DNA of 64,000 nt, from positions 62,001 to 126,000 of the forward strand of contig NZ_JAODLR010000007.1 of the NCBI RefSeq assembly GCF_025960875.1, written 5' to 3'. Position numbers and translations under genes: made by a program. Source of the stretch: Crystallibacter permensis. GTDB taxonomy: Bacteria > Actinomycetota > Actinomycetes > Actinomycetales > Micrococcaceae. Within the stretch, counting starts at the first letter, position 1. The number at the start of each line of letters is the position of its first letter. This document shows, piece after piece, positions 2,339 through 16,137 of this stretch. The notes under the pieces were generated by a model. It saw nothing but the letters and a program-made list of their open reading frames with translations, had not been told where the DNA came from and did no database searches.

Positions 2339-2367
2339 ATCGTACCTACTAGCAGTTGTGTTGTCTA
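2339..2367 (-). promoter_or_regulatory. Early promoter with two embedded operators
   Basis: On the minus strand TAGACA (2362-2367) and TACGAT (2339-2344) are separated by 17 bp. One operator copy (2346-2358, CTACTAGCAGTTG) fills the spacer. A second (2368-2380, CTACCAGCAGTAG) starts just upstream of the -35 box, 22 bp from the first. The placement predicts repression of the gene that starts at 2307. Confidence 0.65.
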
Positions 2368-2380
2368 CTACCAGCAGTAG
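2346..2380. promoter_or_regulatory. Operator pair A (2346-2358, 2368-2380)
   Basis: Two 13-bp dyads, CTACTAGCAGTTG and CTACCAGCAGTAG, start 22 bp apart. The second is the copy closest to the consensus CTACYRGCAGTAG. Similar pairs occur upstream of other early genes. Confidence 0.7.
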
Positions 2381-2382
2381 TG

Positions 2383-2751
2383 TCAGCGGACATGAGTGCG
2401 GGCACCGGTCAGCAGTGCGACCAGGTCGGCCATGGTCATTGTCACCCACTGATCCTCCGGCTGGCCTTTGCCATGGCGTTTGTGCACGATCACCCCGGCC
2501 AGCGCGTCGTCGTTCCCGCGCTCGGTTTCGGTTTCGGCTGCCCATGTGCCGAGCATCGTTTTCGCGGTGTTCTTGCACTCGATGACGAGCCGGCCGCCCA
2601 TGTGGCGGACGCCGCCGATGTCGCCGCGGTCCTTCGCGCCCGTCTTGGCGCGCCGTTCGATCCGGTCGTCCACGTGCTCGTTCAGGTAGCCGGCAATGGA
2701 TGTTTCGAACCTGGTTCCTGCCTGTTTGGCGCTTGCCCTTGTGCGTGCCAT
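2383..2751 (-). CDS. Holliday junction resolvase-like PD-(D/E)XK nuclease
   Basis: 122 residues, counting from the ATG that has GGGAG 5 nt upstream (longer in-frame starts are less well placed). The arrangement of an N-terminal glutamate (FETSIAGYL), then GDIGGV, then VIECKN is the E...D...ExK core of PD-(D/E)XK nucleases of the Hjc/VRR type. These cleave four-way junctions or trim replication intermediates. In a phage with a RecET-like system and its own clamp, resolving recombination intermediates before packaging is the likely role. Hjc-like calls are common for this arrangement, but a general endonuclease cannot be excluded. Confidence 0.7.
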   Translation of the reverse strand: MARTRASAKQAGTRFETSIAGYLNEHVDDRIERRAKTGAKDRGDIGGVRHMGGRLVIECKNTAKTMLGTWAAETETERGNDDALAGVIVHKRHGKGQPEDQWVTMTMADLVALLTGARTHVR

Positions 2752-2811
2752 GTTTCTCCCTTGCGCCCACAGAATCGTTTCTGCGGGCCTTATTGATGGT
2801 TGCTGGTCCAA

Positions 2812-2824
2812 CTACTGCCAATAG
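2812..2824. promoter_or_regulatory. Operator copy B
   Basis: CTACTGCCAATAG matches 12 of 13 positions of the reverse-complement form seen at 14494. On the minus strand it lies just downstream of a possible -10 box TAGAAT (2827-2832), in front of the resolvase gene. A much weaker copy begins 22 bp away at 2790. Confidence 0.55.
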
Positions 2825-2829
2825 GTATT

Positions 2830-3180
2830 CTAGGCAGCCCTACCCCGCAAAGAACCGTTACGGGCGGCACGTTCCGACCTAGGCCGCACCCGCTGATCCA
2901 TAACACCCACCTTCGGAGCCCGGTAGTTCGGGTACAACTCAGCCACACACTCAGCCAACCTAGCCCGCCCCACAGCAAACGACGTAGGGTTCCGAGCCTC
3001 AGCGGCGGCCTTCACCGCCAACGCGCCCTTCATCACCGAATACGTGTCAGCCTTCGCCTCAAAATACCGGCGCCGACGCTGTGCCGCTTTGATCTTCGCC
3101 CGCAACAACTCAGACTGCACTACACGCAGTTCATCGGACATGGCTGCGTACTGCTCGGGGCTTACCGGTTCGGTGCTCAT
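2830..3180 (-). CDS. Hypothetical helical phage protein (116 aa)
   Basis: The start chosen is the ATG that overlaps the stop of the upstream gene (ATGA). Longer frames upstream would overlap that gene and are rich in proline and arginine. The product is largely alpha-helical and basic (VQSELLRAKIKAAQRRRRYFEAKAD), ending in an arginine-rich tail, so nucleic-acid binding is possible. The function is not recognised. Confidence 0.65.
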   Translation of the reverse strand: MSTEPVSPEQYAAMSDELRVVQSELLRAKIKAAQRRRRYFEAKADTYSVMKGALAVKAAAEARNPTSFAVGRARLAECVAELYPNYRAPKVGVMDQRVRPRSERAARNGSLRGRAA

Positions 3181-3542
3181 GATGGTTCTCCGTTCGTAGA
3201 ATGTTGGTTCCCCGTAGGGAGGGTCTGCTCGTCTTCGTCGTCGGGGAGGTTGCTGCTCATGTGGTGGTGCCCGCAGAGGGGCCAGATCATTCCGCACCAT
3301 GAGCAGTTGGGGCCGTTGCCGTCCATGTCGAACATGGGTTGCGCGGTGTTGGCACCGAATCGTTCCATTTTGTTGAGGATCCAGTCGGCGGCTTTGAGTG
3401 CTTGGTCGTCGTCGAGTTCGAGTTCGTCGCGGACTTCGCGCACGAATTTCATGGTTGCCTGGTACGGGGCCGGCTTGCTCATGACGGGCCGGTTCCCTTG
3501 GGCGGGGATCATTATTGCTTGGAATTCGGGGTTTAGGCTCAT
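3177..3542 (-). CDS. Hypothetical phage protein with a Cys/His cluster (121 aa)
   Basis: It starts at the ATG with AGGAAA upstream, overlapping the previous stop by 4 bp. The centre is helical (MKFVREVRDELELDDDQALK), and near residue 84 there is CSWCGMIWPLCGHHH, a plausible zinc knuckle with three cysteines and three histidines. It lies between the replication-initiator region and the resolvase, suggesting a DNA-replication accessory role. That role is inference only. Confidence 0.65.
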   Translation of the reverse strand: MSLNPEFQAIMIPAQGNRPVMSKPAPYQATMKFVREVRDELELDDDQALKAADWILNKMERFGANTAQPMFDMDGNGPNCSWCGMIWPLCGHHHMSSNLPDDEDEQTLPTGNQHSTNGEPS

Positions 3543-4018
3543 GGTGTTTTCCTTTCGGTGGCGGCTCGGATCATGTCCCTGAAATTCGGGGGAGCCGGTT
3601 TCTTCAACGGTTTGCAGTGCTTGCAGGTGGACATGTCTTCGAGCGGGTGTTCCTCGCATGGTGGTTCGTTCCCGATCGCGGCAGTGTGTGCTGGTGATGC
3701 GGCTTTCTCGTCGGTGAGCCAGTGCTTCCCGTCTTTGAAAATGATGATCGGGGTTTTCTTCTCCGGATTCCTGGCAACCTTCACGGCAGCTTCCACGAGG
3801 GCGGGGAATGGTGCGTAGGTCCGGTGCTCCCACAACAGTTTCATCATGGACGGGACTTCCCATTCCGGGCGGAGTTGCTTGAGTAGCTGGGCTAGTAGCG
3901 TGGCTTGGATTTCGGTTAGCTCGGATGAATGATTTTCAGCAGGCAAACGTCCGGTTGGGGAGTTCGGCGGTTGCGACGGTTCGAGCATTCTGGTTCGCGT
4001 CTCCTGGTTAGTTAACAT
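3539..4018 (-). CDS. Hypothetical protein near the replication module (159 aa), possible helicase-loader-like
   Basis: It follows the initiator-like gene across a 146-bp non-coding array. The product has a helical central part (LAQLLKQLRPEWEVPSMMKL) and a C-terminal CEEHPLEDMSTCKHC cluster that could bind zinc. Proteins in this position in actinophages sometimes act as helicase loaders, but no P-loop is visible here, so I do not assign that role. An alternative ATG 10 codons downstream (3988) has an AGGAG box 13 nt away; the longer start is kept because it follows the array directly. Confidence 0.6.
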   Translation of the reverse strand: MLTNQETRTRMLEPSQPPNSPTGRLPAENHSSELTEIQATLLAQLLKQLRPEWEVPSMMKLLWEHRTYAPFPALVEAAVKVARNPEKKTPIIIFKDGKHWLTDEKAASPAHTAAIGNEPPCEEHPLEDMSTCKHCKPLKKPAPPNFRDMIRAATERKTP

Positions 4019-4092
4019 CTTTGGTGAGTATTGCTTGCTGGTTGTAGGGATGATGGTTGTAGGAGTAGGTAGAAGGGTTAAGGGAGTAGGCC

Positions 4093-4210
4093 ACCCCTTT
4101 CATGGAGGGGTCCAGTTACCCTTTCCGATACCCTTTATGGACCCCTATCGGGACCCCTTTTCGGTCATGTTCCCCAACCTGTTAGCGATACTGTTTCGGG
4201 GACCCTTTCC
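4093..4210. repeat. Iteron-like array, candidate phage replication origin
   Basis: Six copies of the pattern (G/T/C)ACCC(C)TTT occur on the plus strand, beginning at 4093, 4117, 4129, 4140, 4152 and 4201 (the 4140 copy is degenerate, GACCCCTAT). Four of them are phased 11-12 bp apart, that is on the same face of the helix. An 8-bp inverted repeat GGGGTCCA / TGGACCCC (4107-4114, 4138-4145) lies inside. The array spans the 3' end of the initiator-like gene and the non-coding gap after it, the classical place for an origin. Confidence 0.5.
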
Positions 4211-4680
4211 GCTGCTATTTCGGTGGGGTTGAGGGAGGGTTTCCGTAGGATTTCGGTGAGGCTATCCCACCCCTTCAACATGGGGTCATCGACCTGTAAC
4301 CGCTTGAGCTCATGAACCAGTACCCCGCGCAGTTTCCGGGACGCGACAGCACCGTAAGCCTTGGCCACAGCGACACCCATTTTGGGTTGCTTGAGCAGCC
4401 CGTCGTGGCGGATGAACGAGCGGATGAGCGCTTCCTCCGTGTCCTCGTCAATGACCAGGTAGAGTGCGTCCTGCAGTTCGGTGGCAGCGGATTCGAGGAC
4501 GTCGAGGGTGAGGCCCTTGGACTTGGGGATGATGCGCTTCGGCCGCCAGTCAGCGACACCAGCGAGGGACAGGTCGTCGGTGAGCAGGTAGAAGTACAGC
4601 CACTGCGCGATGGGTGACAGGTCTAGGAAGTCGTCGTCCAACCAGATGAGACGTTTGATGCGAGCGTATTCGCCGGCCAT
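4165..4680 (-). CDS. Phage replication initiator / replisome-organiser-like DNA-binding protein
   Basis: 171 residues from an ATG with AAAGGA 6 nt upstream. The N-terminal region (YARIKRLIWLDDDFLDLSPIAQWLYFYLLT) has the pattern of the winged-helix N-terminal domain found in phage replisome organisers and related HTH proteins, and a second basic helical part follows (AYGAVASRKLRGVLVHELKRL). The C-terminus lies over the first copy of a repeat array. An operator pair sits in front of it, so it probably heads a repressor-controlled unit. I infer that it binds the adjacent repeats to start replication. Confidence 0.6.
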   Translation of the reverse strand: MAGEYARIKRLIWLDDDFLDLSPIAQWLYFYLLTDDLSLAGVADWRPKRIIPKSKGLTLDVLESAATELQDALYLVIDEDTEEALIRSFIRHDGLLKQPKMGVAVAKAYGAVASRKLRGVLVHELKRLQVDDPMLKGWDSLTEILRKPSLNPTEIAAERVPETVSLTGWGT

Positions 4681-4695
4681 GGTGAGTCCTTTCCC

Positions 4696-4730
4696 CTACT
4701 GCTGATTGTTGCCAAGGCTACCAGCAGTAG
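4696..4730. promoter_or_regulatory. Operator pair C (4696-4708, 4718-4730)
   Basis: CTACTGCTGATTG and a perfect second copy of CTACCAGCAGTAG start 22 bp apart, in the 64-bp gap before the initiator-like gene. A TTGGCA (minus strand, 4710-4715) lies between them, but no convincing -10 is visible, so transcription may come from further upstream and be blocked here. Confidence 0.65.
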
Positions 4731-4744
4731 GTTTGCCGGGCATG

Positions 4745-7264
4745 CTAAGCGGCGGCGGTTTCGGTGAGGTCGAACAGTGAGGGCATGTCGCGTTTGCGTT
4801 CCTCCGCCTGCAGGTACTTCACGGAGTCGAGGAAGTACCCGGTGTTGAGCTCGGATGCGCGTCCGCGGCGCCCTGCTTTGATGGCGCGGAGGGGTACGGT
4901 GCCGATGCCGCCGAAGGGGTCGAACACGAGGTCGTCTTCGTTGGAGTACCGGTTGATGAGCCTGTCGACGATGTCGAATTGGAGGGGGCAGACGTGCATG
5001 GCCAGGTTGCGGCGCTTCTGCTCCCCGTTGAGCGTGAGCATGCGGTTGACGTCGTGCCACACTTCGGGGTGCCAGGATCCGGGAGCCAATGACATGAACG
5101 TGGCCGGCAGTTTGCCTTTGCCTTCGAGCTCTTCACCAATGCGGATGTGGGATTCGTAGTCGTACACTTCGCGGAGGGTTTGCTGCGTGAACATGCGGGA
5201 CATCTGATCACCGGGCAGTGCTGCGAGCTCGTCAGGCGTCATTGGCCGATCGCCGGAGGACCGCCAGAACGCGTGCGCGTCAACCTGCCAGCGTGCCCGC
5301 GTGTAGTCGGCCTTGTCCTTCGTCACAGGGGCGTCGGCGTAGCCCTTGGAACGGTCGGTCTGCGGCTTGTGGAACAGCAGAATGTACTCCGGTGACCCGG
5401 CACCCATTTTGGAGCCGTCCTTGCACTGCTCGGACCAGCCGAGCCGGTACGTCTGGTTGTTCTCGCGGACAACATCTGTGACGACGGTGATCATGCCCAT
5501 GAAGTCGAAGCCGTGCTTGATGCCGTGCATCAGCGCTTCGGCGTGGAACGGGGAGACGGTGGGCACGCCGGCCCCGGTGACGTTGCCAAACAGGATCCGG
5601 TCTTTCACATGGCAGGCGTAGATCCTGCCGGGCGCCAGGATGCGGTGCAGCTGCGGGGTAAGGAAGTCCATTTGCGCCCAGAAGTGCTCGTTGTTATCGG
5701 TGTGCCCGAAGTCGTTGTAGGACGGCGTGTATTCGTAGTGGTTGGAGAACGGGATGCTGGTGACGATGAGGTCAACGGAGTTCTCGTCCATGATGCTGGT
5801 TTCGGCGACGCAGTCGTTGTTGGCGAGGGTCCAGCCTTCGCCGTTGGCTTCGATGCGGTCGATGCCCATGGAGCGTGTGAGAGCGTCGTTGATGGACGTT
5901 TGCGATAGACCGTGCTCTTGGATGATTTTGGTCATGTTCTTGGTCAGCTCCTTGTGTGCGGCCCATTTGGTTTTGAGGGTGGCGACGACTTCGCGCTCGG
6001 ATTCGGCGTGCACAATGTGGACAGTGCAGGGCCGATCCTGTCCGAAGCGTTGGATGCGGTGGACGGACTGGATGAAGTCGTTGAATTTGTGGGTGATGCC
6101 CACGTAGACGGCGGTGTTGCACTGCTGCAGGTTCAGGCCTTGGCCGAGCATGACGGGCTTGCCGATGAGGGCGTAGGTTTCCCGGTTGCGCCACGCTTCG
6201 ATGCGACTCTCTGTTTCCTCAATCGACAGCGAACCGTGCACAGATGAGTAGGTGAGGCCGGCCGCCTTGAGCGCTTGCTCGATGGCCGTTTGCTCGTCGT
6301 TCAAGTCGCACCAAAGAATGATCTGATCATCCGTAGAACCGCCATGCTCGAGGACGAGCTCGGTGAGACGTTCCACCCGGGCGGGCAGCGTGTCCCGTTT
6401 CTCCTTCGCAGCCTGGGGGAGTCCCATGCCGATGCCGCGCAGCAGCGTGCCCTGCCCGTCACGGTCCACGGCCGCGGTGGAGTGGTCTACCCCTACTTCG
6501 TGCCAGAGGTCGGTGAGCGGCGGCAGGTCGTAGCCGGTGGCGTCGAATCCGAGGTCGGCGGGGGATTGCAGGAAGATGGACCAGGAGTTCAGCCACAACC
6601 AGAACTCCTGTTCCTTGTGCGGGTACAGGGTGAGGTTGTTCGCCTGCGTCGAGTCGCGCTGAAAGAACCGGGTGAGCGCCTGCCCGGTGTCCATGACACC
6701 TAGGAATCCGGCGTAGTGGATGAGTTCCTTGTACCGGTTGGGGGACGGGGTGGCGGTGGCCACGAAACGGTAGGCGACGTCTTCGAACAGGGTGAGGAAC
6801 GTCTGATAGGTTTTCGATCCGAACGAGCGGAGGACGCCGGCTTCGTCGAGGGACACGGCGGTGAATAGTGCTGGGTCGAGTTTGCCGTCGCGCACGGTTT
6901 CGTAGTTGGTGAGGTAGATGCCGGGCCCGTCGATTTCCTCGGCACGGCGGATGAACCTGGCTTCGATGCCGAGCTTGCGGGCGTCGGTCATGAACTCTTG
7001 GCGGACGCCGAGCGGGCAGACTATGAGTCCGGATCCTCCGGCTTCCTCCAAGGTGAGGCGTACGGTTTCGAGTTGCATGATGGACTTGCCTAGCCCGAAC
7101 GCGGCGAAGATGGCGCGGCGCCCGCCCTCGACTGCCCACTGGACAATGGATTGCTGGTGGTCTTTGAGGATGGTATTGATCCGGTCCGCGTCGATTTCGA
7201 ACCCGTACCGCTTATCGAAGTTCACCTTCTCCTTGAGAAAGTCGGCGTAGTCGATGCTGCTCAT
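4745..7264 (-). CDS. SF2 (Snf2-like) helicase fused to a DNA amino-methyltransferase
   Basis: An 839-residue two-part protein. Residues 30-440 form a Snf2/SF2 helicase: Walker A-like FGLGKS (56-61), LDEA (139-142), TATP (170-173) and motif VI HRIQRFGQ (402-409). Residues 475-839 form a beta-type N4/N6 methyltransferase, with the catalytic motif TSIPFSN (near 502-508) ahead of the SAM motif FDPFGGIG (781-788). The usual (D/S)PP(Y/F) is SIPF here, with one proline replaced. There is no recognisable nuclease domain, so this is a modification/translocation enzyme, perhaps protecting phage DNA while tracking along it. The start overlaps the upstream stop (ATGA) and has GAGAGGAAA upstream. Such fusions are known in phages; the target site is unknown. 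Confidence 0.85.
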   Translation of the reverse strand: MSSIDYADFLKEKVNFDKRYGFEIDADRINTILKDHQQSIVQWAVEGGRRAIFAAFGLGKSIMQLETVRLTLEEAGGSGLIVCPLGVRQEFMTDARKLGIEARFIRRAEEIDGPGIYLTNYETVRDGKLDPALFTAVSLDEAGVLRSFGSKTYQTFLTLFEDVAYRFVATATPSPNRYKELIHYAGFLGVMDTGQALTRFFQRDSTQANNLTLYPHKEQEFWLWLNSWSIFLQSPADLGFDATGYDLPPLTDLWHEVGVDHSTAAVDRDGQGTLLRGIGMGLPQAAKEKRDTLPARVERLTELVLEHGGSTDDQIILWCDLNDEQTAIEQALKAAGLTYSSVHGSLSIEETESRIEAWRNRETYALIGKPVMLGQGLNLQQCNTAVYVGITHKFNDFIQSVHRIQRFGQDRPCTVHIVHAESEREVVATLKTKWAAHKELTKNMTKIIQEHGLSQTSINDALTRSMGIDRIEANGEGWTLANNDCVAETSIMDENSVDLIVTSIPFSNHYEYTPSYNDFGHTDNNEHFWAQMDFLTPQLHRILAPGRIYACHVKDRILFGNVTGAGVPTVSPFHAEALMHGIKHGFDFMGMITVVTDVVRENNQTYRLGWSEQCKDGSKMGAGSPEYILLFHKPQTDRSKGYADAPVTKDKADYTRARWQVDAHAFWRSSGDRPMTPDELAALPGDQMSRMFTQQTLREVYDYESHIRIGEELEGKGKLPATFMSLAPGSWHPEVWHDVNRMLTLNGEQKRRNLAMHVCPLQFDIVDRLINRYSNEDDLVFDPFGGIGTVPLRAIKAGRRGRASELNTGYFLDSVKYLQAEERKRDMPSLFDLTETAAA

Positions 7265-7485
7265 ATTGTGGTTTCCTCTCCCCGCGCTTTGAGTCGTTCG
7301 AGTAGTTCAAGTTCGCCGCGGTGGCGGAGCATCGCATACATGGGCCGGACACTCTCGTATCCGATGCGCACAGCGATTTGGTCTGGTGGCGTGCCGTAAG
7401 ACGCCAACCATGTGATGTCCTCCATGCGCTCTTCGTTGCGGCGGGTGCGGGCCTCGTTCATGGCCAACGTCGCTTTCGTGCTCAT
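7261..7485 (-). CDS. Small HTH-like phage protein (74 aa)
   Basis: Coupled by 4-bp overlaps to both the m5C methyltransferase and the helicase-methyltransferase. The middle (MEDITWLASYGTPPDQIAVRIGYESV) looks like the RNA-polymerase-sigma-like or terminase-small-subunit-like HTH found in many small phage proteins ('the position where a gene is skipped by its lack of recognised domain'). No further domain is seen. Its place between two methyltransferases suggests a modification accessory or regulator; that is inference. Confidence 0.6.
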   Translation of the reverse strand: MSTKATLAMNEARTRRNEERMEDITWLASYGTPPDQIAVRIGYESVRPMYAMLRHRGELELLERLKARGEETTI

Positions 7486-8168
7486 GCTGCAGCGTCCTTC
7501 CTCAGTTCATCCATGTCTGCGGCTGATTCAAGCTGTTGCATGAGTTGCCCGCCAATGAACCGCGTATATGCGGGTGGGATGGCTTCGGCGATGGACTTGC
7601 GGTTGTTGGTCCAGTCGATGCCCATGGCAACCTGCCATTCGGCTACGGTTCCTTTGCCGCCGCCTTCGCCGTGGACTGCGAGGTATGGGCCGTCGTAGTA
7701 GGTGCCGTGGCGCCATCCGCGGACCCTGCCGCGGTGTGGTTTGTGTCGGGTGGGGAATGCTTGCCAGCCTTCGACTTCGAAGTACCTGTGCCGGATGACG
7801 CCGAGGCCGAACATTTCACCGCACAAAGTGAGGTCGCGGCGCAGGTCGGAGCCTTGAACGTTCTCGATGACGGTAGGTTTGTCGATCTGTGCGAACAGTG
7901 CGCGGGTTGCCGGGATCAAGTTCACGTAGAGCTTTCCTTTGTTGGTCCCTTTGGTGAGGGCCGTTGATGCTTGGCATGGCGGGCTCGCGTGGATGGCGTC
8001 GAAGTCCTGCCAATGTGCGGCCAGGTAGGTGAGCGCGTCGCCCTGTACGAATATGTCTCCGGCGTAGTCGGGCTGGGCTGCGATGTCCACGCCGGTTACG
8101 TGGAAGCCGGCCTCTTTGTAGCCCTTTCCGGCGCCACCTGCGCCACAGAACAGATCGAGAATTTTCAT
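7482..8168 (-). CDS. DNA (cytosine-5) methyltransferase
   Basis: 228 residues with the ordered motifs of C5-methyltransferases: motif I DLFCGAGG (5-12), motif IV ASPPCQAS with the catalytic Cys65, and motif VI VIENV (100-104). It is short for the family, so the target-recognition region is compact. No restriction partner lies nearby, so it is a solitary methyltransferase and probably protects phage DNA from host restriction. The start is the ATG overlapping the upstream stop (ATGA). Sequence specificity cannot be read from the protein. Confidence 0.92.
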   Translation of the reverse strand: MKILDLFCGAGGAGKGYKEAGFHVTGVDIAAQPDYAGDIFVQGDALTYLAAHWQDFDAIHASPPCQASTALTKGTNKGKLYVNLIPATRALFAQIDKPTVIENVQGSDLRRDLTLCGEMFGLGVIRHRYFEVEGWQAFPTRHKPHRGRVRGWRHGTYYDGPYLAVHGEGGGKGTVAEWQVAMGIDWTNNRKSIAEAIPPAYTRFIGGQLMQQLESAADMDELRKDAAA

Positions 8169-8326
8169 GCGGCTGCCTTCCGAATGTCGGCTTGGGCTTG
8201 TCGTCGTTCGCGTGAGTAGTGCGTCCAGGCTTCGCGGCAACTGTCGCAGCGGCAGCCGTAGTTGGCGTAGCAGTTGGGTGTTCCGTGGCGTGGGTCTTGC
8301 GGGTTTGTGACCGGGTGTGCGGCCAT
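8165..8326 (-). CDS. Small Cys-rich phage protein (53 aa), possible zinc finger
   Basis: The start is an ATG with GGGGG 6 nt upstream; a longer frame would run into the promoter. The core HGTPNCYANYGCRCDSCREAW carries four cysteines plus a histidine, a pattern common in small actinophage proteins with 'GCRCxxC' and probably zinc-binding. It is the first gene of the unit that encodes both methyltransferases and is preceded by an operator-controlled promoter. Confidence 0.7.
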   Translation of the reverse strand: MAAHPVTNPQDPRHGTPNCYANYGCRCDSCREAWTHYSRERRQAQADIRKAAA

Positions 8327-8362
8327 TTTGTTCCCCCTATATCGTGCGGACCTTGTAATAAC

Positions 8363-8392
8363 ACTATATACCAGCAATATGTATTTACACAA
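8363..8392 (-). promoter_or_regulatory. Early promoter with two embedded operators (methyltransferase unit)
   Basis: On the minus strand TTGTGT (8387-8392), an 18-bp spacer and TATAGT (8363-8368). Operator copies ATACCAGCAATAT (8368-8380) and CAATCAACAGTAG (8390-8402) occupy the spacer and overlap the -35, starting 22 bp apart, the same layout as at 2339-2380. Confidence 0.65.
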
Positions 8393-8402
8393 TCAACAGT
8401 AG
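8368..8402. promoter_or_regulatory. Operator pair D (8368-8380, 8390-8402)
   Basis: ATACCAGCAATAT and CAATCAACAGTAG, each matching 10 of 13 positions of the consensus and starting exactly 22 bp apart. Confidence 0.6.
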
Positions 8403-8433
8403 TGGCCCCCGGCAAGGTTCTGCCGAGGGCCAC
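8402..8433 (-). terminator. GC-rich hairpin terminator
   Basis: A 13-position stem (GTGGCCCCCGGCA with TGCCGAGGGCCAC, one mismatch) around a 6-base loop. It lies between the stop of the 66-aa gene and the methyltransferase-unit promoter. No T-run follows, as is usual in high-GC actinobacteria. Confidence 0.55.
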
Positions 8434-8449
8434 AAGGGTGGGGGAGGGG

Positions 8450-8650
8450 TTAGGCGGCTAGTCGCGCCCGGCACTCGAGGTGCATGGATTCGATGGTGTC
8501 GCGCCAGTCGTCGCGGGCAGCAGTCCGCAGCTCGTCCACGTAGGCGCGGACGTCGCTCTGGAAGTCGTACTGCTCTCGCACGCATTCATCAAGGAAGTCC
8601 ATGTCCATGATCTGAGTGCTTGCGTCGCGCAGGTTCTCAAGTACGGCCAT
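8450..8650 (-). CDS. Small helical phage protein (66 aa)
   Basis: It follows the sliding-clamp gene by 2 bp and is the last gene before a hairpin. The product is wholly helical and acidic (MDMDFLDECVREQYDFQSDVRAY) with no known motif. It may interact with the clamp given the coupling, but that is only a guess from position. Confidence 0.65.
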   Translation of the reverse strand: MAVLENLRDASTQIMDMDFLDECVREQYDFQSDVRAYVDELRTAARDDWRDTIESMHLECRARLAA

Positions 8651-8652
8651 GG

Positions 8653-9753
8653 TTAGGCTCCTGGCAGTCGGACCGGCATGAGCAGGTGCCGGAGGTCGGT
8701 GTCATCGGTGGGTGTGATCACAGCGGGCTTGGGTGAGGCGGTGAATCCGATGATCACAGTTTCGGTGGGCATCGTCTTGAGCGCGTGTTCAAGGTAGGCG
8801 GGGTTGAACGCGGCGGTGATCGGGTCGCCGTCGAGTTCGCAGTCCATGAACTCGCGGCCCTGCGCGTCCTCACCTGTCCCTGCGTCGAGCTCAATCTCCC
8901 CGTCGCGGACCTGCAACCGGAGCGGCGTGTTCCGTTCCGCCACCGTGGAGACGCGGGAGACGACGTCGGCGAGCATGGCCCGGTTCACGGTCACGTTGAT
9001 GGGAGTGTTGTCGGGGAACAATGCGCTGATCTTCGGGTAATCCCCGTCCACGGTCAGGGATGTGGTTGCCCGGTTGCCGTTGCGGAATCCCACCTTGTCA
9101 TCGGCGGACAGCACCTGCAGTTCACCGGCGGCGAGCTTGGACACATCAACGAGTGTCTTGGATTTGATCAGCCAGGCGAACGAGGTTTCCGGGTCGACGG
9201 GCTCCCACGGGATGGTGCGCTCGGCCAACCGGTACCGGTCCGTCGCGGAGAGCCGTAGTTCCTTGCCTTCGGCGACGACGTGCACGGCCGCGAGGATCGG
9301 CAACGTGTCGTCGTTGGCCGCGGTCCCAGCAACCTGGGCGACAGCCGCGGCGAACGCGTGCCCGTCCACGGTCCCAGCCTTAGCGGGGAGCTCGGGCATG
9401 GCGGGGAACTCAGCGGCGGGCATGGTGGATAGCGTGTACTTCGCCTTGCCCGATGTGATGGACACCCGGGTGCCGTCGACGGTGACCTCTACTGGTCGGT
9501 TCTTTGGGAGTTTGGACAGGATGTCCGTGAGCATGCGGCCCGGGACCAGCACGTGGCCGGCATCGAGCACTTCGGCGGGCGCGGTGATTCGGTTGGACAC
9601 TTCATAGTCGAAACCGGAGAGGCGGATGGTTCCCTCAGCGGCTTCGATGAGCAGGCCGGAGAGTACCGGGGTCGCGGGTCGGGGGCTGATGGCTTTGGCA
9701 GCGAATACGGCGGCTTCGGCGAACGTGGTGGAGTCGATACGGATCTTGGTCAT
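8653..9753 (-). CDS. Phage DNA polymerase III beta-like sliding clamp
   Basis: 366 residues, the usual length of a bacterial DnaN. Recognisable segments are RPATPVLSGLLIEA near the N-terminus, GFDYEVSNRI, ATDRYRLAER in the middle domain, and the C-terminal LRHLLMPVRL. The last is the MPVRL-type end of beta clamps that forms part of the peptide-binding pocket. It forms a ring that holds polymerase on DNA. No phage polymerase is visible in this window, so the clamp probably recruits the host polymerase III or lies upstream of one off-window. Confidence 0.9.
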   Translation of the reverse strand: MTKIRIDSTTFAEAAVFAAKAISPRPATPVLSGLLIEAAEGTIRLSGFDYEVSNRITAPAEVLDAGHVLVPGRMLTDILSKLPKNRPVEVTVDGTRVSITSGKAKYTLSTMPAAEFPAMPELPAKAGTVDGHAFAAAVAQVAGTAANDDTLPILAAVHVVAEGKELRLSATDRYRLAERTIPWEPVDPETSFAWLIKSKTLVDVSKLAAGELQVLSADDKVGFRNGNRATTSLTVDGDYPKISALFPDNTPINVTVNRAMLADVVSRVSTVAERNTPLRLQVRDGEIELDAGTGEDAQGREFMDCELDGDPITAAFNPAYLEHALKTMPTETVIIGFTASPKPAVITPTDDTDLRHLLMPVRLPGA

Positions 9754-9773
9754 GTTCAGGCTTCCTTAGGTGG

Positions 9774-10037
9774 TTAGGCTGCGGCTTGGGCGGGCTTGCA
9801 GAACTCGGACAGCAGGTCCGGGCGGAATCCGAACCAGTGTTTTTCGTCGTGGGTGTCGCCGTTGTCGTTGACGATGACGACGGGGGCGGCCTCGTATCCG
9901 AGTGCTTTTACGGCGGCCAGGTCTTGCGGCGACTTGGAGAGGTCGACGGTGTTGTAGTCGGCATGGTTGCGGTCGAGCCATCTCTTTGTGCTTACGCACT
10001 GGCCGCATGCTGGTGTCGTGTAGACGGTGATTTTCAA
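9774..10037 (-). CDS. NrdH/glutaredoxin-like redoxin
   Basis: 87 residues from a TTG start (AGAAAG upstream). The reading frame before it has no plausible start close by, and the protein begins with the fold's first strand (KITVYTTPACGQC). The CGQC active site and the AAPVVIV cis-proline segment are typical of NrdH-like redoxins, which deliver electrons to ribonucleotide reductase. In phages they support dNTP synthesis. It sits between SSB and the clamp. Confidence 0.85.
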   Translation of the reverse strand: MKITVYTTPACGQCVSTKRWLDRNHADYNTVDLSKSPQDLAAVKALGYEAAPVVIVNDNGDTHDEKHWFGFRPDLLSEFCKPAQAAA

Positions 10038-10104
10038 AGCGTGTTCTTTCTGGTTGGGGTGGTGCCGCCCTTCCCCCAAGGTAGGGCGGCACCGGTTCAT
10101 GGGT

Positions 10105-10572
10105 TTAGGTCCAGCCGTTGCCAGTGTTAGCGGGGGCGCCCCACGGGTCCGCGCCGTCGCCGTTCTGGCTGGTGTTGCCGCCGAAGCCATCGTTGCCGAT
10201 GCCCTGCCGCTGTGCACGGTTGACCTGCGCGGACACCCAACGCAGGTCCGGGCCGATGGACTCGATGCGGGCCTCGGTCACGGTTCGCTTCTCGCCACTG
10301 GTGGTTTCGTAGGAACGGGATTCCAGTTCGGCCAGAGCGATGACCGCCATGCCTTTATCGAGGGATTCGGATACGTTCTCAGCCATTTCCTTCCATGCCG
10401 AGCAGCGCCAGAAGATGGCTTCCTTGTCCTTCCATTCGTTGGACTGTTTGTCGAACTGGCGGGCGTTCGCAGCAATGGTGAAGTTGGCGACTGCGGCGCC
10501 GGACGGCGTGAACCTGAGTTCGGGCGGGCCAGTCAGCCGGCCCCGGATGGTGATGAACTGTTCATTGGCCAT
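10105..10572 (-). CDS. Single-stranded DNA-binding protein
   Basis: 155 residues. The N-terminal OB fold is clear: ITIRGRLTGPPELRFTPSGAAVANFTIA, then WKEMAENVSESLDKGMAVIALAELESRSYE. A glycine/asparagine-rich linker and a shortened C-terminal tail follow. The usual acidic DDDIPF tip is absent; the protein ends NTGNGWT, so it may not recruit the host partners of SSB in the usual way. It coats ssDNA for replication and the RecET-type annealing encoded next to it. Confidence 0.92.
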   Translation of the reverse strand: MANEQFITIRGRLTGPPELRFTPSGAAVANFTIAANARQFDKQSNEWKDKEAIFWRCSAWKEMAENVSESLDKGMAVIALAELESRSYETTSGEKRTVTEARIESIGPDLRWVSAQVNRAQRQGIGNDGFGGNTSQNGDGADPWGAPANTGNGWT

Positions 10573-10579
10573 GATTTGG

Positions 10580-10792
10580 CTACTTTCTTGCTAGGTGGAC
10601 GAATCTGCAGATACCGCATTTGTAGGCTCTTGGTGTGCCGGTCATTTTGGCGGCGACCAGTGCGGCGTCCTCTTTGGTTTGGTATCGGTACTTCGCTAGG
10701 CATTGGCTCCCGGCGGGACGCCCATATCGCATGTGCGCCCGACGTTTCTTTGCCCCTGCGCTCACGCGGGTACGGGCGCGGGTTCGGGCCAT
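10580..10792 (-). CDS. Small zinc-ribbon-like basic protein (70 aa)
   Basis: A basic N-terminus (MARTRARTRVSAGAKKRRAHMRYG) is followed by a short domain with AYKCGICRFVHLARK; together with an earlier Cys this could bind one metal. It overlaps the 3' end of the annealing-protein gene by 31 bp in another frame. The same CGxCxxVHL ending is common in small actinophage proteins of unknown role. Confidence 0.65.
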   Translation of the reverse strand: MARTRARTRVSAGAKKRRAHMRYGRPAGSQCLAKYRYQTKEDAALVAAKMTGTPRAYKCGICRFVHLARK

Positions 10793-11766
10793 GCTGCGTC
10801 ATCGCCCTCAGCGGCTGGCAATGCCTCTGCTACGAGGTTGGTGAAGTGTTCGAGCATCCGGTTCGCTTCGTCGGCGGTGATGTCCTGGGGTCCACCGGTT
10901 TCGCGCTGCAAGAACCCGTTGACGGCGGCGCCCATGGACGGCTTCGTCTTGTGGCCGGCACCCTTGAGCGCCACGGTGAGGTGGGTCCACTGGTCAGGGG
11001 TGCACATCGGGATTTCGCCTGCGGTGTCGGAGGCAGCCTCATCCACGACTTCGGGATCCGCTTCCGGGGCGGCTTCCGGTTCGGGTTCCGGGGCGTCGTG
11101 CACAATGTCCGGCAGCGACGGGGCAGGGGCAGCTTTCCGCTTCACTGTGCGCTTCGGCTTATCCTCCACCGAGGCGGCCGGGGCTTCGCCCATATCCTCG
11201 ATGGGGTCCATGAGTTCGACGTCGGCCTCGTTGTAGGCGAGGCCCGCCAGCACGTCCGGCGCCACAACCCGGCACACGTCGCCGATGGCACGGGCGCGCA
11301 GCATGGCGATCGGCTCCGTCAGGTACTTCTTGTTCGTGTCGTAGCCTGCCTTCTTGGCGCGCTCCGGCGTCCAGCGGGAAGTGCTCACCGTGTCGGCGCC
11401 CTTGCGCTTCCCCTTCACCACGACTTCCTGCGGCGACTCGGATTCCACCCACACCTGGTGGCCGGCGGCGAGGACGATGGCGTGCATGGCCTTGGAGTAG
11501 AGCCCGGGGCGGCCGGAGACAACGAAGATGGACGACATTGACGCCAGCGGATCCAAGCCCAGAGACTTGCCGTGCAGAATGGCTACAGCTGCGGCTTCTG
11601 GCTTGCCCTGAAAGTCGCGGGGCGCGAACGGGGTGCGGCAGATGCGTTCCGCCAGCGTGTAGGCGTTCCCAAGGTCGTTGACCCATGCCGCCAGGTCGGT
11701 GCCGTTGCCGACGTCGGAGAGTGCCACACCTGTGGCGGGCGCTTCGTTTACTGCTATCTCGGTCAT
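10762..11766 (-). CDS. RecT-family single-strand annealing protein
   Basis: 334 residues. The N-terminal two thirds match the RecT pattern: WVNDLGNAYTLAERICRTPFAP, KPEAAAVAILHGKSLGLDP, SIFVVSGRPGLYSKAMHAIV and LRARAIGDVCRVVAPDVLAG. The C-terminal third (from about residue 200) is a proline/glutamate-rich linker and a small helical domain. It promotes annealing of complementary strands together with the exonuclease coded immediately upstream. The 4-bp overlap couples the pair. Confidence 0.88.
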   Translation of the reverse strand: MTEIAVNEAPATGVALSDVGNGTDLAAWVNDLGNAYTLAERICRTPFAPRDFQGKPEAAAVAILHGKSLGLDPLASMSSIFVVSGRPGLYSKAMHAIVLAAGHQVWVESESPQEVVVKGKRKGADTVSTSRWTPERAKKAGYDTNKKYLTEPIAMLRARAIGDVCRVVAPDVLAGLAYNEADVELMDPIEDMGEAPAASVEDKPKRTVKRKAAPAPSLPDIVHDAPEPEPEAAPEADPEVVDEAASDTAGEIPMCTPDQWTHLTVALKGAGHKTKPSMGAAVNGFLQRETGGPQDITADEANRMLEHFTNLVAEALPAAEGDDAAWPEPAPVPA

Positions 11767-12686
11767 GCTGCTTCCTGTTCTGTGATTGCGATGGTGATGG
11801 GGTCTGTGATGATGCCGTCCCGGTACTTCGTCATCTTGTGCGTGTACGCGGCAGCCAAGAACTGCCCGTACTGCACCTTGATTTCGTCCCGGTCAGCGGC
11901 GAGCTGGTAGAGGCTGGTGCCGAGCGGCCACCCGTCGTAGCGGGCGTTATCCCCGTCCCGGTCCAATGGGGTGACGTGTGCGACGTAGGTTGCCACGACT
12001 TCGGGGAGCGGTTGCTCGTCGCCGTTATCGTCCATGTAGAACTCACCCAACGAGTAGGCTGCGGTCTGCAACGCGGTTTCCCCGTACACGCCCTTGGACG
12101 TTTTCAGGTCGATCTGGATGACCTTGCCCGCGGCGATGTCCTCCGCGCTCATGAGCAGGGGGGAGGTGGCGAACAGGTCGAACGTTCCCGCCCACCAGTC
12201 CTTACGGTTCCCCACGGGGCGTTCCGCCAGGACTGCGGTGATCTGGAAGCGGTCCAAGAATTCGACGTACCCTTCCACGAAGCTGATCAGGTCTTCCGGC
12301 ACGTCCGGCGCTTCCCCGGTGGAGTGTAGGGTTTCGGCGTGCCCGTGGACTGCGGTTCCTCGGATGCCGGCGGCGTCGCGTTCCTTCGTGGGCAGTTCCT
12401 TGAGTTCGCGGACGGCGGCGTCCGGGTCCCCGGCGAGCAGCTGCTCGAGTGCCTCCCGGTTGGCGGGGTTGGCCACCCATTCGGCAACAACCTTGGGCGC
12501 CCAACGGACCAGCGCGGGCTTGGGGATGCCGCCACCGAGCAGTGTGGTGACGCCGGAGACGGGAAGGAACTTGTTGTCCGGGCCGATGACGCCGGGCTTC
12601 TGTGACATGCGGTAGCGGTGGCCGGAGGGTGTGAACTTGAGCCCGCCCTTTTCGGGGGCCTTCGGGGTCCTGGTCTTGGCGGTCAT
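11763..12686 (-). CDS. RecE/Cas4-like PD-(D/E)XK exonuclease
   Basis: 307 residues with the order typical of RecB/Cas4-like phage exonucleases: GTAVHGHAE (110-118), GTFDLF (167-172), IDLKTSKG (192-199) and QTAAYSLGE (207-215). The aspartates in GTFD and IDLKTS plus the lysine form the metal centre. It resects double-stranded ends to give single strands for the RecT partner. The C-terminal part is a helical cap. It is coupled to both neighbours by ATGA overlaps. Confidence 0.87.
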   Translation of the reverse strand: MTAKTRTPKAPEKGGLKFTPSGHRYRMSQKPGVIGPDNKFLPVSGVTTLLGGGIPKPALVRWAPKVVAEWVANPANREALEQLLAGDPDAAVRELKELPTKERDAAGIRGTAVHGHAETLHSTGEAPDVPEDLISFVEGYVEFLDRFQITAVLAERPVGNRKDWWAGTFDLFATSPLLMSAEDIAAGKVIQIDLKTSKGVYGETALQTAAYSLGEFYMDDNGDEQPLPEVVATYVAHVTPLDRDGDNARYDGWPLGTSLYQLAADRDEIKVQYGQFLAAAYTHKMTKYRDGIITDPITIAITEQEAA

Positions 12687-12979
12687 GCTGCTACCTCTTC
12701 CTTGATCTGCGCAGTCTTGCTACGTACGGTTTCGACCGAACGGTCGATCTGATCTGTGGTGGTCAAGACGATCCCATGCTCGACCATGCCTTCGCGGTCC
12801 CAGAAGACGGCGATGGTCAGGTGTGTGGGCTTTGAGTACTGGCGGTTGTCGAACTTGAGATCGATGCTGAAACGTGCACTGGGCACAACCTCACGGAGTT
12901 CCTGAACTGCGGGGTTCAGTGTGTTGTATGCGTAGCGCGCCAACCAGAACAGGTCGTGCGCCGTGGTCTTGGTGGTCAT
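12683..12979 (-). CDS. Hypothetical phage protein (98 aa)
   Basis: The gene lies immediately before the exonuclease and overlaps it by 4 bp. The product is a small alpha/beta protein (AHDLFWLARYAYNTLNP, then ARFSIDLKFDNRQY and HLTIAVFWDREG). No family is recognised. Its tight coupling to the RecET-type pair suggests a recombination accessory. Confidence 0.65.
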   Translation of the reverse strand: MTTKTTAHDLFWLARYAYNTLNPAVQELREVVPSARFSIDLKFDNRQYSKPTHLTIAVFWDREGMVEHGIVLTTTDQIDRSVETVRSKTAQIKEEVAA

Positions 12980-13116
12980 TTCGTGAGTCCGATCATTCGT
13001 GCGAGCTTGTCGCGGTCCGGTTGGGTTGAGATGGCGAGGGCGGCTGCGATGCGTTCCTCGTCGGTTACGTGGATGGGTTCGTCGAGTTGCGTGGATTCGA
13101 GTTGCAGGGTGCTCAT
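12976..13116 (-). CDS. Small acidic phage protein (46 aa)
   Basis: A short frame below normal size cut-offs. It opens with ATG overlapping the preceding stop and closes on the next start (ATGA). The product (STLQLESTQLDEPIHVTDEE then a helix ending MIGLTK) is acidic and helical. Support comes from coupling on both sides. Confidence 0.55.
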   Translation of the reverse strand: MSTLQLESTQLDEPIHVTDEERIAAALAISTQPDRDKLARMIGLTK

Positions 13117-13238
13117 GCCTCGGCCTTGTGGTACTCGCAGTCCGGGTCGTTGACGAGCATCCCGGCTTTCGCTTCCCACTCCGGACATGTGCCGGCGGCG
13201 CAGATGCAACCGTCTTCCGGTTCGGCGAGGTTGGGCAT
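13113..13238 (-). CDS. Tiny Cys-rich phage protein (41 aa)
   Basis: The ATG has GAAGGGG upstream and overlaps the stop of the membrane peptide gene (TGATG). The product has four cysteines (CICAAGTCPEWEAK, NDPDCEYH) plus a histidine, possibly metal-binding. The larger frame that covers it upstream is an arginine-rich shadow and was discarded. Confidence 0.55.
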   Translation of the reverse strand: MPNLAEPEDGCICAAGTCPEWEAKAGMLVNDPDCEYHKAEA

Positions 13239-13315
13239 CAGATCCACCCCTTCCGGCTGGCAACGAACAGGTACGCGCTGCAGGCGACGAGCGCCAGGAA
13301 CTGGATGCCGTTCAT
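13238..13315 (-). CDS. 25-residue membrane peptide
   Basis: MNGIQFLALVACSAYLFVAS is one hydrophobic helix followed by RKGWI, the form of a small transmembrane peptide. Its ATG overlaps the preceding stop (ATGA) and its TGA overlaps the next ATG (TGATG), so it is a link in a chain of coupled genes. The size makes it uncertain, but such peptides can be lysis regulators or membrane effectors. Confidence 0.5.
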   Translation of the reverse strand: MNGIQFLALVACSAYLFVASRKGWI

Positions 13316-13644
13316 GGCCGGACACCGGCGTTGTCGAGCATCGCCCGGATGCTGAACCGGAGCATGTCGCGGCAGTAGTCGAGCAGGTCCGCCGTGTTGT
13401 CCAAGGTCCCGGCCCGGTTCCGGTTGATTGCCGGGTGCGAGCCGTCGAGCACTGCGTCGAGCATCCGCCACGAGTCGATGACATCGTCCAAGTAGTGGGC
13501 TTTCACATCGGCGTGAATGGCGGCGGACAGTTCGCGGGCCGTCTGGTCAAGGTCCGAGTCCGGGTTTTCCACGAAGTTGCCGACGAAGTGGCGGCTGATC
13601 AGGTCCGCCTGGTTGCGGGTGACTGTATGCTGGATAACGGTCAT
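13312..13644 (-). CDS. Hypothetical helical phage protein (110 aa)
   Basis: It starts at an ATG with AGGAG 7 nt upstream; the longer frame above it adds only proline-rich residues and was rejected. The protein is largely helical (AIHADVKAHYLDDVIDSWRML, LDYCRDMLRFSIRAML) and has no known motif. Confidence 0.65.
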   Translation of the reverse strand: MTVIQHTVTRNQADLISRHFVGNFVENPDSDLDQTARELSAAIHADVKAHYLDDVIDSWRMLDAVLDGSHPAINRNRAGTLDNTADLLDYCRDMLRFSIRAMLDNAGVRP

Positions 13645-13666
13645 GACTTCTCCTAGGTGGTCGTGT

Positions 13667-13921
13667 TCACTGGCCCCGGCGTTGCAGCGCCGGGGTTTTC
13701 TTGTTGAGCAGCTGGTTGAGCTTCCGGGTTCCGCCCTTGGCGCCGGCTGGCTTGGATTCGGTTCGTGCGAGGATCTGGTTGACATGGTTTTCGGTGAACC
13801 GGATGGTGCGTTCCCCGAACCTTTGTGACGGCCATTCGTTGCGCCGCGCCCGTTCCCTGACGAAGTCGGGTGTCACTTCGAACCGTTCGGCCAGTTCCTT
13901 CGGGGTGTAGAGCTTGTTCAC
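13667..13921 (-). CDS. Excisionase-like MerR/Xis-type HTH protein
   Basis: 84 residues from a GTG whose first four bases (GTGA) include the upstream stop. The pattern KLYTPKELAERFEVTPDFVRERARRNEWPSQRFGERTIRF is the MerR-like winged helix of phage excisionases and AlpA-type regulators, with a basic C-terminal tail. In this position among early genes it may act as the excisionase that directs att-site recombination, although the integrase is not in the window. It could instead be a transcription regulator. Confidence 0.65.
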   Translation of the reverse strand: MNKLYTPKELAERFEVTPDFVRERARRNEWPSQRFGERTIRFTENHVNQILARTESKPAGAKGGTRKLNQLLNKKTPALQRRGQ

Positions 13922-14202
13922 AGCAGCATCCCTCTGTGTTCCGGCCGGCCCTGCCAGACAGCGCATACTCCGCCGGACCTGCCCGGGCGCCGTGACCGGT
14001 GGTAGCCGATCACATGGATGAGCTGATCCTTTGCCGCTGCGCTGAACAGTGCGCCCCACTGGTTCGGGTTTGCCGGGTCGGCCATGCTGTACCGTTCCTG
14101 CAGGTCGAGTGCGTCGAAGTGGCGGCCGGTTGTCGCTTCCTTGCGGATCGCGGTGAGCGCGTCTTTCTTCCAGTCCGTTTCAAGGACCATCGCGGTACTC
14201 AT
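13918..14202 (-). CDS. Hypothetical phage protein (94 aa)
   Basis: The N-terminus (METDWKKDALTAIRKEA-type helix; actual start MSTAMVLETDWKKDALTA) and the mid part (FDALDLQERYSMADPANPNQWGALFSAAAK) look like the small HTH domain found in phage proteins that follow Cro-type genes. The C-terminus is basic (RSRRPGRSG). Overlaps of 4 bp couple it to both neighbours. Function not recognised. Confidence 0.6.
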   Translation of the reverse strand: MSTAMVLETDWKKDALTAIRKEATTGRHFDALDLQERYSMADPANPNQWGALFSAAAKDQLIHVIGYHRSRRPGRSGGVCAVWQGRPEHRGMLL

Positions 14203-14462
14203 GCCAACTCGATGTGGTAGACGTTCAGGCGGACACCGTTGTCAGGTCCGAACTGGAACGTGGTGGTGTAGATGGTCCCGTCCTCGTCACGGTTTTCCCG
14301 GACGGGTGCAGCGAACCGCGCAGCGTACTCGTTGAGCGCTTCGAGAGTCTCTACACTTACGCGAACATCCAATGGCTGTTCGGGGTACGCCATACCAACA
14401 ATTGGGTTGGCCTCTATGAAGTCCGCCAACACGCGGAAACCTTCAGCAAAATTTCTGGACAT
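14199..14462 (-). CDS. Hypothetical phage protein (87 aa)
   Basis: It starts with an ATG immediately after the Cro-like stop (TAA-ATG adjacent). The N-terminal helix (EGFRVLADFIEANP) precedes a small beta domain. No known family. An operator-like pair (14472, 14494) lies just in front of it, inside the coding end of the upstream gene. Confidence 0.6.
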   Translation of the reverse strand: MSRNFAEGFRVLADFIEANPIVGMAYPEQPLDVRVSVETLEALNEYAARFAAPVRENRDEDGTIYTTTFQFGPDNGVRLNVYHIELA

Positions 14463-14771
14463 TTACGCCACCATCTTCTGATTGTCGAAAGCACTACTGG
14501 CAGTAGTGATCTTGGGTACGAAAATAGAATCAATCTCCACACCGAGAGACACCGAGATAAGTGCGGCCGTCTTGGGCGTGCAGGTGGACTTCCGGCCATC
14601 CTTCAAGTGGCTGATGAACGAGTAGTGGACTCCGGCCCGTCGGGCGAGCTCGGAGGCGGTGCAGATGAAACGCGGGCTGTTGCGTGTGAGCAGCTCCTTG
14701 AACTGCTCACGGTCCCTGATTTTCATGTATAACCCCTGGGTCTGACGTTTTCTGATCATGGTTACTGACAT
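14463..14771 (-). CDS. Cro-like XRE/HTH regulator, first gene of the leftward early operon
   Basis: 102 residues. A helix-turn-helix (residues about 38-75: TASELARRAGVHYSFISHLKDG) of the XRE type is clear. The start ATG has GGGGGAG 7 nt upstream; an internal ATG 15 codons on also has AGGGG. It diverges from the CI-like repressor across 253 bp that contain the early promoter and operators, the classic cro position. It probably shuts down repressor synthesis or fine-tunes early genes. Confidence 0.7.
   Translation of the reverse strand: MSVTMIRKRQTQGLYMKIRDREQFKELLTRNSPRFICTASELARRAGVHYSFISHLKDGRKSTCTPKTAALISVSLGVEIDSIFVPKITTASSAFDNQKMVA
14472..14506. promoter_or_regulatory. Operator-like pair E (14472-14484, 14494-14506)
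   Basis: CATCTTCTGATTG (weaker) and CTACTGGCAGTAG (11 of 13, nearly perfect dyad) start 22 bp apart. They lie within the 3' end of the Cro-like gene, just before the next start, so they could act as an intragenic roadblock rather than at a promoter. Confidence 0.5.
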
Positions 14772-14818
14772 TGGTTTTTCTCCCCCTCTTGGTGTTTGTG
14801 TGGCTACCGACCCCCTAA

Positions 14819-14874
14819 CAATTGGTAGTAGCTCAAATATCTACTACCGGTAGCAGTCTGTCAACTGCTGATTG
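14819..14874. promoter_or_regulatory. Triple operator F in the divergent immunity region
   Basis: Three dyads start at 14819 (CAATTGGTAGTAG), 14841 (CTACTACCGGTAG) and 14862 (CAACTGCTGATTG), with start-to-start distances of 22 and 21 bp. They cover the early leftward promoter from downstream of the -10 to the -35, similar to the three-operator control regions of lambdoid phages. Confidence 0.7.
14836..14864 (-). promoter_or_regulatory. Early leftward promoter
   Basis: Minus-strand TTGACA (14859-14864, perfect), 17-bp spacer, GATATT (14836-14841). It drives the Cro-like gene and probably the whole early operon. The middle operator lies in the spacer and the 14862 copy overlaps the -35. Confidence 0.7.
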
Positions 14875-14931
14875 TGTTGTACTTGCCAAGCGTGCTGCGT
14901 TTCACCATCGAAACCTAGGGTTTTTCCAAGT

Positions 14932-14967
14932 CAACGGCTGGTAGTGTCCAACTAAACCGGCAGGTAG
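14932..14967. promoter_or_regulatory. Operator copy G and degenerate partner upstream of the repressor gene
   Basis: CAACGGCTGGTAG (14932-14944) matches 11 of 13 positions of the operator. A partner with one inserted base begins at 14954, again 22 bp away. They lie 50-90 bp before the repressor start, a sensible place for autoregulation. Confidence 0.45.
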
Positions 14968-14988: not shown

Positions 14989-15017
14989 TTGACCGGGGGG
15001 ACACCTAGTAGGAATCT
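14989..15017 (+). promoter_or_regulatory. Possible repressor promoter (leaderless transcript)
   Basis: TTGACC (14989-14994), 17-bp spacer, GAATCT (15012-15017). Transcription would begin only a few bases before or at the ATG, giving a leaderless message. The -10 is weak. Confidence 0.35.
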
Positions 15018-15024
15018 TGGGAGC

Positions 15025-16100: not shown

Positions 16101-16130
16101 CCTAAGTGGGTTCGAGTCCCACCTCGGGCA
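16101..16130 (+). other. attR-type end: tRNA 3' fragment (T arm and acceptor strand)
   Basis: GTGGG (16106-16110), loop TTCGAGT, CCCAC (16118-16122) make a perfect T arm. CTCGGGC (16123-16129) and discriminator A follow, so the partner 5' acceptor strand would be GCCCGAG, as in many tRNA-Leu genes. No 5' half of a tRNA lies upstream; instead the prophage genes begin here. The normal terminator follows. This is what integration into a tRNA 3' end leaves at the far end of an element, with the intact tRNA expected at the left, off-window end. Confidence 0.7.
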
Positions 16131-16137
16131 CGAGTAT

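Follow-up and report, generated by a model that had tools for sequence, protein, structure and literature searches.

The Streptomyces phage phiC31 makes three repressor isoforms and carries inverted repeats before its early promoters, with a motif of its own that differs from the one considered below and, to our knowledge, without pairing at 22 bp. Dispersal of repressor sites over the genome is described for phiC31 and L5, for which a joint figure of 18-30 sites is given. In mycobacteriophage BPs, each operator of the gp33 repressor consists of two palindromes of 12 bp that are 5 or 8 bp apart, one of them frequently degenerate and the other good; such operators occur at several places in small intergenic regions, some of them with promoters (available text of PMC4557955). 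The stoperators of cluster A phages are sites of 13-14 bp that are asymmetric, single and in one orientation (available text of PMC9934374). In the conjugative elements ICEBs1 and TnSmu1, a helix-turn-helix (HTH) repressor gene, immR, lies beside a gene for an ImmA-like peptidase (available text of PMC8960796 and PMC10233336). Here we describe paired palindromes in a prophage of the actinobacterium Crystallibacter permensis, seen in a stretch of 64,000 nucleotides (the window, positions 62001-126000 of contig C7, in a genome of 4.95 Mb and 66 contigs) in which the right part of the prophage takes up the first 16.1 kb. On sequence analysis, it is quite probable that these sites serve as operators in the immunity system of the prophage itself, in the form of paired palindromes for an HTH repressor, most likely the product of the gene starting at 15025 (P0001). 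The general scheme is already known from other phages, and this site sequence appears to be undescribed; for the strings CTACCGGTAG, CTACTGGCAGTAG, CTACCAGCAGTAG and GCCTACCGGTAGGC, to which this statement is limited, the literature searched gave matches to a 10-base string alone, in papers on unrelated subjects as judged by title and start of abstract.

An earlier note on this DNA had proposed a repressor-operator network, and this is the best-supported reading: the sites form a common motif, are paired, are concentrated in the prophage, lie in gaps, overlap the strongest predicted early promoters, and have similar palindromes as counterparts next to some of the related repressors. All 12 positions that had been listed carry a related 13-mer. 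The consensus that had been written for them, CTACYRGCAGTAG, is matched exactly at three (2368, 4718 and 14494) and more loosely at the rest, with one mismatch on one strand at 2346, 2812 and 14841, two at 4696 and 14932, and more than two at 8368, 8390, 14819 and 14862. The 13-bp dyad itself is real; it is better described as an imperfect palindrome near CWAYYRSYRRTWG, as given by a matrix from the 12 reported sites on both strands, which comes in pairs about 22 bp apart. This constant pairing had been missed, as had the partner sites at 2790, 14472 and about 14955 and the pairs C7:58805/58827 and C7:60869/60892.

With up to two mismatches to CTACYRGCAGTAG, the window holds 22 match rows against 1.83 expected, the largest number in 100 shuffles being 7; several of these rows count a single place again, on the other strand or in a shifted register, and the row at 8658 is probably a chance match. 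Fifteen rows lie at 2346-14932 and seven in the remaining 48 kb. With up to one mismatch, the whole genome yields 28 rows, seven of which are in the prophage (six places), and 110 rows when CTACYRGCAGTAG is read backwards. The strict palindrome CWAYYRSYRRTWG occurs at 26 places in the genome (53 for its backwards form), ten in the prophage of ~48.5 kb and 16 elsewhere, and is thus ~63-fold denser in the prophage, ~1% of the genome, than in the rest; nine of the ten prophage places had helped to shape the pattern, and 58805 had not. The comparison of densities that the earlier note had suggested, run here with patterns rather than the matrix, did not show the equal density in the rest of the genome that would have spoken against the network.

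The matrix scan covered 126 kb of contig C7. At 23.4 bits or more, and with overlapping registers of the same sites omitted, eight pairs are found in C7:1-126000, all of them within the prophage and at spacings of 21-23 bp: 58805/58827, 60869/60892, 64346/64368, 64790/64812, 66696/66718, 70368/70390, 76472/76494 and 76819/76841/76862. The spacing is 22 bp except for 23 at 60869 and 21 at 76841/76862. A ninth place, C7:76932, has one good site with a poor partner at 22 bp. All nine places belong to the leftward early region of the prophage. The best pair outside the prophage reaches 19.4 bits at a spacing of 13 (window 16788). The matrix had been trained without the first two pairs, which are located to the left of the window; their sites score 15.0, 12.3, 8.4 and 15.8. 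Sites of at least 12 bits number 16 in the 48.6-kb prophage, none in the 29.5 kb leftwards and three in the 47.8 kb rightwards. A weak additional 22-bp pair of 17.5 bits was seen at C7:40052-40086, in the late region of the prophage left of the window. The operator places in the window, in window positions, are as follows.

2346..2380: pair 2346/2368 at spacing 22, 18.3 and 17.9 bits, directly behind the RusA-family gene, on predicted leftward promoter TAGACA-17-TACGAT (promoter score 8.0)
2790..2824: pair 2790 (weak)/2812, 8.5 and 18.5 bits, spacing 22, without a convincing leftward promoter
4696..4730: pair 4696/4718 at spacing 22, 16.0 and 17.9 bits, in the gap separating the helicase/methylase gene from the replication-initiation gene, without a convincing promoter
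8368..8402: pair 8368/8390, 12.3 and 13.7 bits, spacing 22, on predicted leftward promoter TTGTGT-18-TATAGT (promoter score 7.4)
14472..14506: site 14494 with weak partner 14472, 19.3 and 4.1 bits, spacing 22, coding, within the 3' end of the Cro-like gene
14819..14874: triple 14819/14841/14862, 17.6, 17.9 and 14.7 bits, spacings 22 and 21, on TTGACA-17-GATATT, predicted to be the main early promoter of the leftward strand
14932..14967: site 14932, upstream of the repressor gene, 12.7 bits, and near 14955 what may be a very weak partner, 1.5 bits

As the earlier note had stated, the sites lie almost only in gaps. Seventeen of 19 are non-coding, where the non-coding share of the 18.45-kb early region is 11.9% (simple gene calls, from which two doubtful ones were removed and to which three small genes were added manually); when all gene calls are kept, 16 of 19 sites and 10.1% of the region are non-coding. 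The exception is 14472/14494, which is coding in both counts.

Promoters are predicted only, using a home-made, sigma-70-like score for both hexamers and their spacing. Six leftward promoters in the prophage score at least 7.4, and four of these lie on operator pairs: TTGACA-17-GATATT on 14862/14841, with 8.6 the top score of the leftward strand, TTGACA-18-TAGTCT at C7:58805, TAGACA-17-TACGAT on 2368/2346 and TTGTGT-18-TATAGT on 8390/8368. The other two leftward promoters (C7:35811 and 34064) and the four rightward ones are located off the pairs. In the three window promoters the spacer is filled by one palindrome, and its partner overlaps the -35 box or adjoins it. The promoter at C7:58805 differs in that its -35 box overlaps the end of a site, with the -10 box lying beyond. 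A possible fifth overlap is found at C7:60869/60892, where a TAGAAT box is combined with a poor -35. The earlier statement that the sites stand ahead of transcription units is upheld, in the sense of overlap with predicted promoters, at four of the nine pairs and possibly at a fifth.

Three regulatory genes accompany the sites.

15025..15600, plus strand: P0001, candidate immunity repressor, PHROG 12831 (E 8.8e-16, residues 11-128)
15530..16030, plus strand: P0002, M78/ImmA-like metallopeptidase, PF06114 (23.4 bits, cut-off 22) and PHROG 87 metallo-protease (2.2e-9)
14463..14771, minus strand: P0003, Cro-like HTH protein, PHROG 14639 'cro-like repressor' (E 0.012)

The PHROG 12831 profile covers the conserved N-terminal part of P0001, placing the protein in that family, and a Pfam search of P0001 gave no match. 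In the structure model of P0001, the N-terminal part contains five helices predicted with confidence, and a longer helix comes later (mean predicted local distance difference test score 73.8, predicted template modelling score 0.49); a fold search with this model gave nothing at E 0.001 or better (best E 0.038), and the 50 PDB matches listed include many Cro/C1-type HTH proteins, none of them significant. The best Pfam match of P0003 is HTH_26 (E 0.0012), under the curated cut-off of that family. The genes of P0001 and P0003 are divergent, facing each other, and the start of the P0002 gene overlaps the end of the repressor gene, so that an M78-family peptidase is encoded directly behind the repressor, as in an ImmR/ImmA-type switch. 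In the window at 14989-15025 a second candidate repressor promoter was noted, TTGACC with AATCTT or GAATCT 17-18 bp on; it ends just short of the ATG at 15025, and its mRNA would have almost no leader.

From these data we infer the binding protein, its dimers, cooperativity, repression, autoregulation and the action of the peptidase. The HTH repressor, most likely the 15025 product and presumably dimeric, would bind each 13-bp palindrome, and two dimers would be positioned two helical turns (22 bp) apart on the same face of the DNA, where they would probably bind cooperatively. At 14819-14874, 2346-2380, 8368-8402 and C7:58805-58839 the palindromes lie over the -35 box or touch it, and mostly they also fill the spacer between the predicted -35 and -10 boxes, so that bound repressor would exclude RNA polymerase and silence the early genes in the lysogen. 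Autoregulation would be the role of site 14932, which lies upstream of the repressor gene. The same sites may also be used by the Cro-like protein, and the repressor may be removed on induction by the M78 peptidase. The three pairs without a clear promoter may act as roadblocks.

The prophage itself is bounded by attachment repeats enclosing ~48.5 kb, the left one (C7:29582-29607) being located inside a tRNA-Leu(CAA) gene.

16106..16131: right attachment site, a 26-bp copy of the 3' part of tRNA-Leu(CAA), exact repeat of C7:29582-29607

An integrase gene lies at the left end, with terminase and portal genes in between. The early cluster runs leftward, beginning with P0003 and including excisionase, exonuclease, RecT, single-stranded DNA-binding protein, processivity factor, methyltransferase, helicase, replication-initiation and RusA-family genes. 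Among the matches listed, the hosts of phages with related genes are Arthrobacter, Glutamicibacter, Gordonia, Tsukamurella and Mycobacterium.

Homologs of P0001 were identified in 27 of 394 other genomes of the family, in 30 phage records, 20 of them listed, at a threshold of E 0.01, and at 18 viral-contig loci, the own copy included. After inspection, nine of 16 family loci were excluded from later counts, their upstream side being apparently coding or without a divergent control region. Upstream of P0001 relatives, GCCTA-N4-TAGGC is the top gapped palindrome, with 16 copies in 11 of 28 regions against 0.01 expected; the 28 include the own region and some duplicates, e.g. L068/L085 and L079/L092. 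A related form, GCCTAC-N2-GTAGGC, occupies the -35/-10 spacer in part of the relatives, and the prophage's own version keeps the core CTACCGGTAG, at 14844, and is missing the outer GC. When the early strand of seven relatives was scanned, the top-scoring promoter had the palindrome in its spacer in four (L065, L068, L070 and L077). In L077 the two best promoters both have it, one being next to the repressor and the other 10.6 kb distant; L074 has it in the third-ranked promoter, and L075 has none. In L079 the second promoter, tied for first, has only half the palindrome, and a lower one (7.1, tied) has CTACTTGCAGTAG. Similarly, the best promoter in the first 20 kb of phage BIM BV-113 has CAACCAATGGTTG in its spacer just after rusA, resembling the prophage's own 2346/2368 after the RusA-family gene.

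Several further observations were made at these loci. In both L077 and L079 the distal site is found where an open reading frame ends that appears nuclease-like by eye, no family search having been made. Upstream of the repressor homolog in L065, L068 and L070, two tandem early promoters are 44, 44 and 46 bp apart, about double the 22-bp operator spacing. Two genomes each have two tandem repressor paralogs (G080:C7:144796-145620 and G203:C3:214126-214989). Other local repeats seen by eye, ACAAGTG in TripleJ (L055:9645-9886) and AGTGATAACC in BIM BV-113 (L058:2316-2548), are perhaps the operators of these phages.

As to spacing, the best pair falls at 22 bp in seven of 25 sequences with any pair (36 scanned), a preference that is supportive only, with L068, L070 and L074 being homologous and equally high scores occurring in Richie (spacing 31, 22.2 bits) and L080 (spacing 20, 21.0). 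Exact counts of spacers in CTAC-Nx-GTAG are small and a hint at most. When the prophage's own matrix was run on ten named phages, a 22-bp pair passing the filter was found in BIM BV-113 and TripleJ only; Kukla is without one, though its control region is almost identical to that of TripleJ. A word search of phage control regions with up to three mismatches was rejected as too noisy, since the own operators were not ranked first, and positional conservation before the replication-initiation gene was likewise rejected, as none of 13 relatives besides the own copy had a site of at least 12 bits in the 160 bp upstream of that gene. It might be speculated, tentatively and with more doubt than confidence, that repressors of the PHROG 12831 type share an operator grammar, in which one palindrome lies in the -35/-10 spacer and a second ~22 bp away, the arrangement is reused at dispersed promoters, in particular just after a resolvase or nuclease gene, the letters vary with the repressor, and promoterless pairs are symmetric roadblocks.

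A number of results weigh against assigning the sites to P0001 and its immunity function. No close relative of P0001 besides the own copy was found in three scans (phage records, genome contigs and viral contigs). In 24 loci of relatives, scanned over 10.5-20 kb, the perfect GCCTA-N4-TAGGC is present near the repressor in eight and absent in 16, and its perfect copies are not dispersed elsewhere in these loci, so that wide dispersal may be special to this prophage. The prophage's own matrix finds few or no sites in the ten named phages. The partner sites at 2790, 14472 and ~14955 are weak, and at 2790/2812, 4696/4718 and 14472/14494 no convincing leftward promoter was detected by the hexamer and spacing score. 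It also carries some weight that the Cro-like protein could be the main binder, although we regard this as unlikely.

If P0003, or both HTH proteins equally, were the main binder, the network would time the early lytic genes rather than keep lysogeny. Consistent with this, a divergent HTH gene lies beside the triple operator, and the palindrome is present in six of six examined loci with matches to both proteins, which does not separate the two; nine loci with a P0003 match were examined, of 17 genomes other than the own. In the three with a P0003 match but only a far-diverged repressor, however, two are without the palindrome and one has a reduced form, a weak argument from small numbers, and one genome with matches to both (G022) has no perfect palindrome near its repressor. 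The locus comparison thus weakly favors P0001, and we give the alternative a low probability. It seems very improbable that a host regulator uses these sites or that the palindromes arose by chance: 16 strict copies do occur outside the prophage, but these are scattered, none less than 1 kb from another, and neither the pairing nor the promoter overlap is expected by chance.

Most sites could also be stoperators in the sense of L5, where bound repressor would block elongating RNA polymerase in the gaps of one long leftward transcript. The location in short gaps between co-directional genes and the three pairs without a convincing promoter would fit. However, four pairs lie on the best leftward promoters, and cluster A stoperators are single, asymmetric and oriented (available text of PMC9934374), whereas the sites described here are symmetric pairs, for which reason stoperators were set aside; we consider this explanation quite unlikely. 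The same comparison does not bear out the resemblance to stoperators in form that the earlier note had seen, since the asymmetry expected from cluster A is not found in these imperfect, paired palindromes. What is shared with cluster A phages and MabJ, as far as the available text of PMC9934374 and PMC9283540 goes, is the presence of many repressor sites in short actinophage gaps, with at least one on an early promoter.

Operators of a prophage-encoded HTH repressor, most likely P0001, thus remain the favored explanation, and paired symmetric sites would be closest to those of BPs and phiC31 rather than to asymmetric stoperators. Like BPs, the prophage has two palindromes at a short fixed spacing (21-23), with partner sites of 4.1-8.5 bits at three pairs; BPs differs in its motif, CGACATATGTCG, and in a computed centre-to-centre distance of 17 or 20 bp versus 22. 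Immunity in BPs is integration-dependent (available text of PMC4557955), and the likeness is drawn from the layout of the sites. With phiC31 it shares the dispersal of repressor sites over the genome. With regard to the ImmR/ImmA systems, an M78 peptidase gene likewise lies beside an HTH repressor gene, cleavage of P0001 being putative; ICEBs1 and TnSmu1 are conjugative elements, and P0001 belongs to PHROG 12831.

The analysis provides a testable operator motif for a repressor family of which, so far, mostly annotations are known, makes a prediction of four or more early promoters in the prophage and suggests a route to the operators of relatives, which would aid the prediction of superinfection immunity among actinobacterial phages. 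If the shared grammar holds true, operators and immunity groups would be predictable from sequence across phages using PHROG 12831 repressors.

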